64,000 bases of DNA from a bacterium BMS3Abin14 (GTDB lineage Bacteria > BMS3Abin14): positions 89,671-153,670 of the forward strand of contig BDTG01000010.1 in the NCBI GenBank assembly GCA_002897695.1. The letters are read 5' to 3'. The notes under the pieces were generated by a model. That model was given only the letters and a program-made list of their open reading frames with translations, ran no database searches and was not told where the DNA came from. The position numbers and the translations under genes are program-made. How positions within the stretch are numbered: the stretch's first letter is position 1; the number at the start of each line of letters is the position of its first letter. This document shows, in pieces, positions 30,719 to 31,631 of this stretch.

Positions 30719-30756
30719 GCGAAAAGTCCCGGCTGGACTTTTCGCGACCATGTCAA
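30719..30756. repeat. Dispersed palindromic element, copy 3 (short form)
   Basis: GCGAAAAGTCC and GGACTTTTCGC form an inverted repeat around a short loop, followed by GACCATGTCAA. On the minus strand this reads as the ATGGTCGC-AAAAGTCCA arm of copies 1 and 2. It lies just past the Doc stop and may serve as its terminator. Confidence 0.65.
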
Positions 30757-31184
30757 GAGTCGTATGGAGTAAAAGCCGTCAATCCATTCCTGATGAATTT
30801 TTTAATTTCCTTTATAACGCTCTCCCTGTATTTCGGATTGCTCTTTGCGACTTCAATGGATGTCTGATAGAAAGATTCACTTGGAACATTTAACCATTTA
30901 TTGTTCATCGCGAGAAATACTACGAGAGTTGTCAGAGCAATTCTTTTATTACCATTAAGAAATGGTTGGTTTTTTATCATAAGGTAGAAAAGCATCGCAG
31001 CCTTATCAATAAGAGTCGGGTAAAGGTCTTTGCCGCCGAAAGTTTGTAATACGGTTGCCAGACAACTTTCCAGTTTACCCGGGTAACGGGTCTCAAAGTC
31101 CGGTATCGGCTCATCCCACTCAAGATGTTTTCGAGCGAGAGTGTGAGCGATATGCTCGACCTCGCTTATCTTTATTGACCTCAT
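30753..31184 (-). CDS. doc: Doc/Fic-family toxin, Fic His replaced by Gln
   Basis: The 143-residue protein is a Doc (death-on-curing) Fic fold. The central motif reads KNQPFLNGNKRIA where active family members have K-N-H-P-F-x-D/N-G-N-K-R: the catalytic His is Gln here while the anion-binding GNKR part is intact. Doc phosphorylates EF-Tu and other Fic proteins transfer AMP. Loss of His should impair this, unless the subgroup uses another residue. Its start overlaps the antitoxin end by four bases, the standard coupled order. Confidence 0.87.
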   Translation of the reverse strand: MRSIKISEVEHIAHTLARKHLEWDEPIPDFETRYPGKLESCLATVLQTFGGKDLYPTLIDKAAMLFYLMIKNQPFLNGNKRIALTTLVVFLAMNNKWLNVPSESFYQTSIEVAKSNPKYRESVIKEIKKFIRNGLTAFTPYDS

Positions 31185-31432
31185 TCTTTTCCAAGCCGCT
31201 TAAGAACATCTCCGTATTCCCGGACAGTTCTATTGACGGCTTTGTCTATTTTTGCCCTGGCTGCAGGAGTGATGTCCTGGTAAATATCTCCCAGATCCCG
31301 GCGGTCAATTACATAGTTGCGGCCAACCTTGGCCGCAACTATGTCTCCTTTTTTTATTTTCTTGAAAACGGCAACCCTGCTTATACCCATAATTCTGGCG
31401 GCCTCTGAAGTACCAATAAGGTTTTTCACCAT
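31181..31432 (-). CDS. HTH antitoxin (excisionase-like DNA-binding domain) of the Doc pair
   Basis: The 83-residue protein begins with a MerR/excisionase-type HTH (IGTSEAARIMGISRVAVFKKIKKGDIVAAKVGRNYVIDRRDL). A helical tail follows (PAARAKIDKAVNRTVREYGDVLKRLGKE) that should block the toxin. The AGGAG eight bases upstream supports the ATG. The palindrome array 60-165 bases upstream is a likely binding site for it. The next gene is doc. Confidence 0.88.
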   Translation of the reverse strand: MVKNLIGTSEAARIMGISRVAVFKKIKKGDIVAAKVGRNYVIDRRDLGDIYQDITPAARAKIDKAVNRTVREYGDVLKRLGKE

Positions 31433-31494: not shown

Positions 31495-31598
31495 GATTAA
31501 CATAGGTTAACCACTCAGCGGATTGTTAACAAATGCTAACTAACCCAAGTTTGATTAACCTATGTTAACCATCTGCCGTAACGTTAACATATGTTAAC
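31495..31598 (-). promoter_or_regulatory. Array of four palindromes at 29-bp spacing
   Basis: Four copies of a dyad, best form GTTAACATATGTTAAC (31583-31598, perfect), lie with centres at 31503.5, 31532.5, 31561.5 and 31590.5, i.e. exactly 29 bp apart. The others read TTAACATAGGTTAA (31497-31510), GTTAACAAATGCTAAC (31525-31540) and TTAACCTATGTTAA (31555-31568). Spacers of 13-15 bases differ from each other. The array lies upstream of the antitoxin-doc operon and is most simply an operator cluster. Confidence 0.8.
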
Positions 31599-31631
31599 TA
31601 CACTGTAAACACCTTTCGTGCTCACTGTTGT

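Follow-up and report, generated by a model that had tools for sequence, protein, structure and literature searches.

Four palindromes at 29-bp steps upstream of an HTH_17–Doc gene pair: a probable autoregulatory operator with a conserved spacing lattice

An array of four 16-bp dyads precedes an antitoxin–doc gene pair in a 64-kb stretch of bacterial DNA (the window), and it is most likely a switch by which this toxin–antitoxin pair regulates itself. We are confident, short of certainty, that the array constitutes an autoregulatory operator and that its operon belongs to an HTH_17–Doc family of toxin–antitoxin systems which has been little described; neighboring sites of the array would be occupied cooperatively. 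The reading is built on sequence comparison, namely conservation of the dyads, conservation of the step between them and covariation of the dyads with the recognition helix of the antitoxin; binding, dimeric state, repression, cooperativity and the role of Doc are what we infer. Judged in this way, the architecture appears to be of a known kind, an autoregulated toxin–antitoxin operator, which is real and conserved and has an unusual fixed lattice.

Dyad array and adjacent genes

The dyads are of the RTTAACNNATGTTAAC type and are centered at 31503.5, 31532.5, 31561.5 and 31590.5. Dyad 1 (ATTAACATAGGTTAAC, 31496..31511) lies nearest to the antitoxin gene and is followed at spacings of 29/29/29 bp by dyad 2 (GTTAACAAATGCTAAC, 31525..31540), dyad 3 (ATTAACCTATGTTAAC, 31554..31569) and dyad 4 (GTTAACATATGTTAAC, 31583..31598), which is a perfect palindrome and lies farthest from the gene. 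The 13-bp spacers have pairwise only 4–5 of 13 bases in common, and 63 bp separate the array from the antitoxin start at 31432, upstream of a minus-strand operon. The palindromes, their exact steps, the unrelated spacers and the distance to the antitoxin, all listed in a preliminary description of this DNA, were thus reproduced from the sequence. Matches to RTTAACNNATGTTAAY with at most one mismatch were found at only one other place in the 2.28-Mb genome, and among 12 genomes of the phylum dyads paired at a 29-bp offset (≤3 mismatches) occurred only here and in the same-genus relative G001. Because of this rarity of the dyad in the genome and of the paired pattern in the phylum, the array is not a product of chance.

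The antitoxin gene (31181..31432, minus strand) encodes 83 amino acids comprising a MerR-like/excisionase-type winged helix-turn-helix (HTH, residues ~5–47) and a C-terminal helix (56–82). The protein matched HTH_17 (PF12728) in Pfam with 31 bits (cut-off 27) and TIGR01764 in NCBIfam with 29.6 bits (cut-off 28.8), and the structure model (pLDDT 81.5) likewise showed a winged HTH without coiled coil and a long C-terminal helix, which places it in the HTH_17/excisionase-type (MerR-like) class. No match to Phd was obtained in Pfam or NCBIfam, where HTH_17 and excise were the best families; the Phd antitoxin family was ruled out by these profiles together with the winged-HTH model, which does not have the Phd/YefM fold. 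The structural neighbors of the model in the PDB (Foldseek) were BldC, RacA, Xis and RdfS; their E-values were weak (at least 0.05), and therefore we assign the modeled antitoxin to a fold class only.

The second gene (30753..31184, minus strand) encodes a Doc/Fic-family protein of 143 amino acids and its start overlaps the antitoxin stop by 4 nt. It scored 46 bits against PF02661 and 47 bits against TIGR01550 (DOC_P1; cut-off 38.65), and this order, in which the gene of a small DNA-binding antitoxin is immediately followed by one for a Doc/Fic protein, is the layout of type II toxin–antitoxin systems of the Doc class. The Fic motif of active Doc proteins, HxFx(D/N)GNKR with a catalytic His, reads KNQPFLNGNKR in the window protein, with Gln at the position of His. 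Because of this replacement toxicity of the window Doc is doubtful and the protein may be inactive; by its profile we class it as a Doc-family protein and not as an active toxin.

In G001, the antitoxin of which is 92% identical to that of the window, four dyads at 29, 29 and 29 bp again precede the antitoxin–doc pair, so that all four dyads of the window are kept. The dyads of the two genomes are identical at 57 of 64 positions and the 13-bp spacers at 20 of 39 without any change in length, which points to selection on the sites and on their spacing. As judged by reading the neighboring sequences, the pair is flanked in the window by an ABC1-kinase-like gene and uvrA and in G001 by a calcium-binding-repeat-like and an M28-peptidase-like reading frame; therefore, the array travels with the module. 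G001 also contains an isolated 25-aa remnant of an antitoxin N-terminus (L004:1501-1575, G001:C15), a decayed second copy.

Occurrence in relatives

Relatives were collected by protein, the DNA playing no part in the search. The first set, obtained with three antitoxins as query, consisted of 55 loci fetched from bacterial genomes, mostly of Patescibacteria but also of Elusimicrobia, Omnitrophota, a deltaproteobacterium and others, and the second set of 53 fresh loci; about 100 relatives were compared in total. When the 150 bp next to the antitoxin start were scored, 43 of 56 loci in the first set had a best dyad of ≥11.5 as compared to about 0.05% of 1937 random pieces, and a dyad was present at 46 of 53 loci in the second set. 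Homologous antitoxin–doc loci hence carry the dyads, as the preliminary description had proposed to check, and the palindrome follows the HTH antitoxin–Doc module across phyla. No plasmid matches were found at 1e-5, and viral contigs gave distant HTH matches only.

Four full dyads were seen in the window and in G001, so this part of the preliminary description describes a lineage-specific form; the usual form is one full dyad with inner half-sites. A single full dyad only was present at 34 of 53 loci in the first and 33 of 53 in the second set. Three or more full dyads at 28/29 bp occurred elsewhere at L017 (three sites), L118 and L149, together with several pairs at 28/29 bp. The Fic-motif His was present in G001 and in 86 relatives checked (41 in the first and 45 in the second set). 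Doc is degraded at L017, L027, L047 and L149 and absent at L023, L024 and L059, and antitoxin and operator remain at most of these loci, which would be expected where autoregulation is maintained longer than the toxin.

Spacing of half-sites

Distances between GTTAAC half-sites were counted at 54 loci of the first set, the window genus being left aside. The most frequent distances were 10 bp (35 loci), 19 bp (19), 29 bp (16), 18 bp (13) and 28 bp (10), with a further peak at 47/48 bp, as compared to a maximum of two to three loci after shuffling. Predictions for the spacing were fixed before the second search and then tried on the 53 new loci, which gave 10 bp (37 loci), 19 bp (29), 29 bp (28), 48 bp (16) and 28 bp (15), with shuffle maxima of 1–3. 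Distances of 23–26 bp did not occur at these 53 loci, and the range from 23 to 27 bp was almost empty over both sets. It is this second set that gives the main sequence support for a conserved lattice.

Many operators combine one full dyad with GTTAAC half-sites at the positions where the inner halves of 28/29-bp lattice neighbors would fall. Among flanking sites at 28/29 bp, inner halves outnumbered outer halves by about 16:3 upstream and 22:5 downstream. The four full dyads are the long end of a conserved 28/29-bp lattice design. Steps of 28 and 29 bp are mixed inside single operators, which implies some tolerance of the step, and one clade of 10 loci as well as L028 has a step of 31–33 bp. 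Thus, the period of 29 bp, initially described as rigid, is conserved across phyla as 28/29 bp but is not strictly fixed. The operators of another group consist of one palindrome, which is often extended, and lack flanking sites. On the antitoxin tree the three operator classes cluster (5 changes as compared to 20.9 on average after shuffling); the alignment has too few columns for most forks, and this clustering alone is clear. At 10.5 bp per turn, steps of 29, 28 and 32 bp correspond to 2.76, 2.67 and 3.05 turns, respectively.

The length of the linker in the antitoxin was considered as a determinant of the spacing, since first-set linkers of 34–35 aa went with 31–33 bp, L031 being an exception; this rule was dropped when the new loci L142 and L143 with 35-aa linkers showed 27–28 bp.

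Predicted promoter

The distal dyad 4 coincides with a putative promoter on the minus strand, TTTACA-N17-TAACGT, the elements of which are assigned by consensus match only. The predicted -35 element TTTACA (31604..31609), the same in G001, lies 5 bp from dyad 4; the predicted -10 element TAACGT (31581..31586; TAACCT in G001) follows after a 17-bp spacer and overlaps one half of the dyad, which would cover both spacer and -10. Transcription in the window is predicted to start near 31574 on the minus strand; with the promoter at this position, the other three dyads would be part of a ~140-nt leader in the window and in G001. TTGACA stands at a fixed distance of 5 bp before the dyad at 24 of 43 first-set loci, and at most loci of this set the right half of the dyad provides a -10-like TAAC[CT]T at 17 bp. 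The same register was found at just 7 of 46 second-set loci; therefore, TTGACA at -11 was rejected as a universal register for Omnitrophota, where the promoter position appears to differ.

Recognition helix and palindrome sequence

Most members have R[IV]A at residues 19–21 of the recognition helix. In the first set, this helix occurred with and without a GTTAAC dyad at a ratio of 32:8, the eight being loci at which the canonical helix occurs but a full canonical dyad is lacking, as compared to 3:10 for other helices (p=3.6e-4). At the 53 new loci the ratios were 31:1 and 5:16 (p = 2e-8). The canonical helix was defined on the first set and the pooled test was framed after a one-residue rule had failed on the second set, so that this comparison is not fully blind, and the Fisher tests ignore shared ancestry.

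Deviating helices usually go with deviating palindromes: E21, H21 or T21 with (A/G/T)GTAAC..GTTAC(T/C/A), including AGTAAC..GTTACT for E21, E20 with GTTATC..GATAAC (L019, L093), and H, S or T19 with GTTAAT. The altered palindromes stay symmetric, both halves changing together. In the sister pair L046/L048 (support 100/88), His19 occurs with GTTAAT and Arg19 with GTTAAC; this pair and the recurrence in several branches argue for repeated changes of helix and site. Because the palindrome covaries with the recognition helix, the antitoxin is likely, even very likely, the ligand of the dyads, which supports the candidate named in the preliminary description.

A strict code pairing A21 with T2 held in the first set (38:0 / 0:6) and was rejected on the second (28:2 / 6:2, p=0.19). 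The failure resulted partly from T21 pairing with changes at base 1, and the general association of helix and site is kept. R19 went with C6 at 36:3 / 0:5 in the first set; usable loci of the second set all had Arg19.

Proposed mechanism

The winged HTH of the antitoxin would bind each 16-bp palindrome as a dimer contacting GTTAAC half-sites 10 bp apart; palindromes with co-changing halves point to such symmetric dimers. In the window, occupancy of the distal dyad on the putative promoter would block RNA polymerase, and the leader downstream of it would contain the next three dyads, again 29 bp apart. Neighboring sites would be filled cooperatively, with antitoxins touching each other directly or being joined by a Doc bridge as in P1 Phd-Doc. 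Cooperativity is suggested by the relatives, in which the half of a flanking site that is kept is the inner one, facing the central dyad; a dimer on the central site may thus help to place its neighbors, directly or via Doc. In the window genus this half-full-half operator would have been extended to four full sites, probably for tighter or steeper autorepression.

Whether Doc takes part is nearly balanced, with a bridged chain somewhat less probable than not. In such a chain Doc would link the C-terminal helices of antitoxins on adjacent sites and the step would derive from the antitoxin2–Doc geometry. In conditional cooperativity, a toxin is a co-repressor when its ratio to the antitoxin is low and a de-repressor when it is high. 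Bridging of this kind is known for P1 Phd-Doc (PMC4803016), the antitoxin model has the C-terminal helix required, and Doc, with its canonical motif at the 86 loci named above, nearly always follows the antitoxin. However, the lattice is kept at L023 and L059, where no Doc was recognized, so that bridging is unneeded for its maintenance or the loss of Doc is recent. Moreover, Phd-Doc of E. faecalis has one palindrome and its complex does not bind DNA (PMC13034048); bridging is thus not universal among Doc systems.

The four sites span 116 bp or about 11 helical turns, each rotated by roughly a quarter turn from the last. That antitoxin dimers, with or without Doc, cover the 29-bp lattice as an uninterrupted superhelix, a spiral assembly as suggested in the preliminary description, the steps of 28/29 and 31–33 bp being two or more alternative phasings of a ruler-like operator, is a speculative extension which we regard as unlikely.

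In a rival reading of low probability, each dyad may bind one dimer that has no contact with its neighbors, the repeats titrating the antitoxin or raising local occupancy and the 29-bp step being a duplication scar or set by avoidance of overlap alone. The many loci with one full dyad and the group with a single palindrome and no flanking sites would fit independent sites. Yet the spacers are unrelated in sequence and still exactly 13 bp long, 28/29 bp recurs across phyla while 23–27 bp is almost empty, and lone dimers would hardly account for conserved half-sites beside a full dyad. Finally, another regulator such as the second HTH_17 protein near G000:C5:5842 is a very improbable ligand: the cluster upstream of its HTH_17-type reading frame does hold the single further copy of the 16-mer GTTAACAAATGCTAAC in this genome, but over about 100 loci the palindrome varies with the recognition helix of the antitoxin itself and goes where the module goes, orphan antitoxins (L003/L024) included.

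Comparison with known systems

The cooperative operator proposed here resembles that of P1 Phd-Doc in the order of antitoxin and Doc-family genes and in a palindromic operator with adjacent sites; in that system, two antitoxin dimers bound to neighboring palindromes can be connected through Doc (PMC4803016, PMC13034048). It differs in the MerR-like/excisionase winged HTH instead of Phd, in the 28/29-bp lattice with up to four full dyads and in the lack of the Fic-motif His in the window Doc. The E. coli YefM-YoeB operator (L and S) likewise has palindromes of a common core at a fixed spacing, one of them overlapping the -10, and respacing breaks cooperative binding (PMC4803016); unlike the window, it has two sites with a center distance of 12 bp, an antitoxin of the YefM/Phd fold and a RelE-type toxin.

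Like the BldC family, the modeled antitoxin has a winged HTH lacking the coiled coil of MerR (probability 1.00, but E-value ~0.05). Multisite binding of variable length would be a second feature in common (PMC5859096). BldC binds head-to-tail on direct repeats, whereas the window sites are palindromes on a 29-bp lattice, implying symmetric dimers; judged by sequence, a BldC-type head-to-tail binder was rejected as these palindromes change in both halves together in relatives. In truncated MerR-PIN systems a small MerR-like HTH without dimerization helix serves as antitoxin according to the part of Makarova 2009 consulted (PMC2701414), but there the partner is a PIN nuclease and an extra N-terminal domain is present. 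The same part names AbrB, Xre, YhfG and PHD, not HTH_17, as partners of Fic/Doc. Neither an HTH_17 antitoxin paired with Doc nor this 28/29-bp lattice was found described in the open-license papers searched.

The operator family is widespread, occurring in the phylum of the window, Patescibacteria, Elusimicrobia, Omnitrophota and others. Its sites vary naturally in sequence, number and spacing alongside the antitoxin, and this diversity offers ready material to study what sets the number and spacing of repressor dimers and in what way DNA is read by a recognition helix of the MerR-like type.

Further observations

A cluster GTTAACAAATGCTAACAATTGTTAGCATTTGTTAGCATTTGTTAGCAT, an approximately 10-bp repeat of a related half-site, is located at L074:1541-1593 (G000:C5 near 5842) upstream of another HTH_17/excisionase-like reading frame on the minus strand, with a tyrosine-recombinase-like reading frame about 750 bp off. 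At L011:3240-3932 the Doc frame passes from HPFIN into GIY-YIG-like sequence (YYVYALKCADNSIYIGYTNNLTRRIKEHK), a fusion or an insertion in the Fic motif. In two Elusimicrobia (L017, L023), the module with degraded or lost Doc is immediately followed by a sulfate adenylyltransferase gene resembling cysD. Tandem multi-HTH_17 proteins related to the window antitoxin were observed at L060:2634-3344 and in genomes G591 and G607, and single genomes of some Omnitrophota contained numerous matches to proteins of this type.
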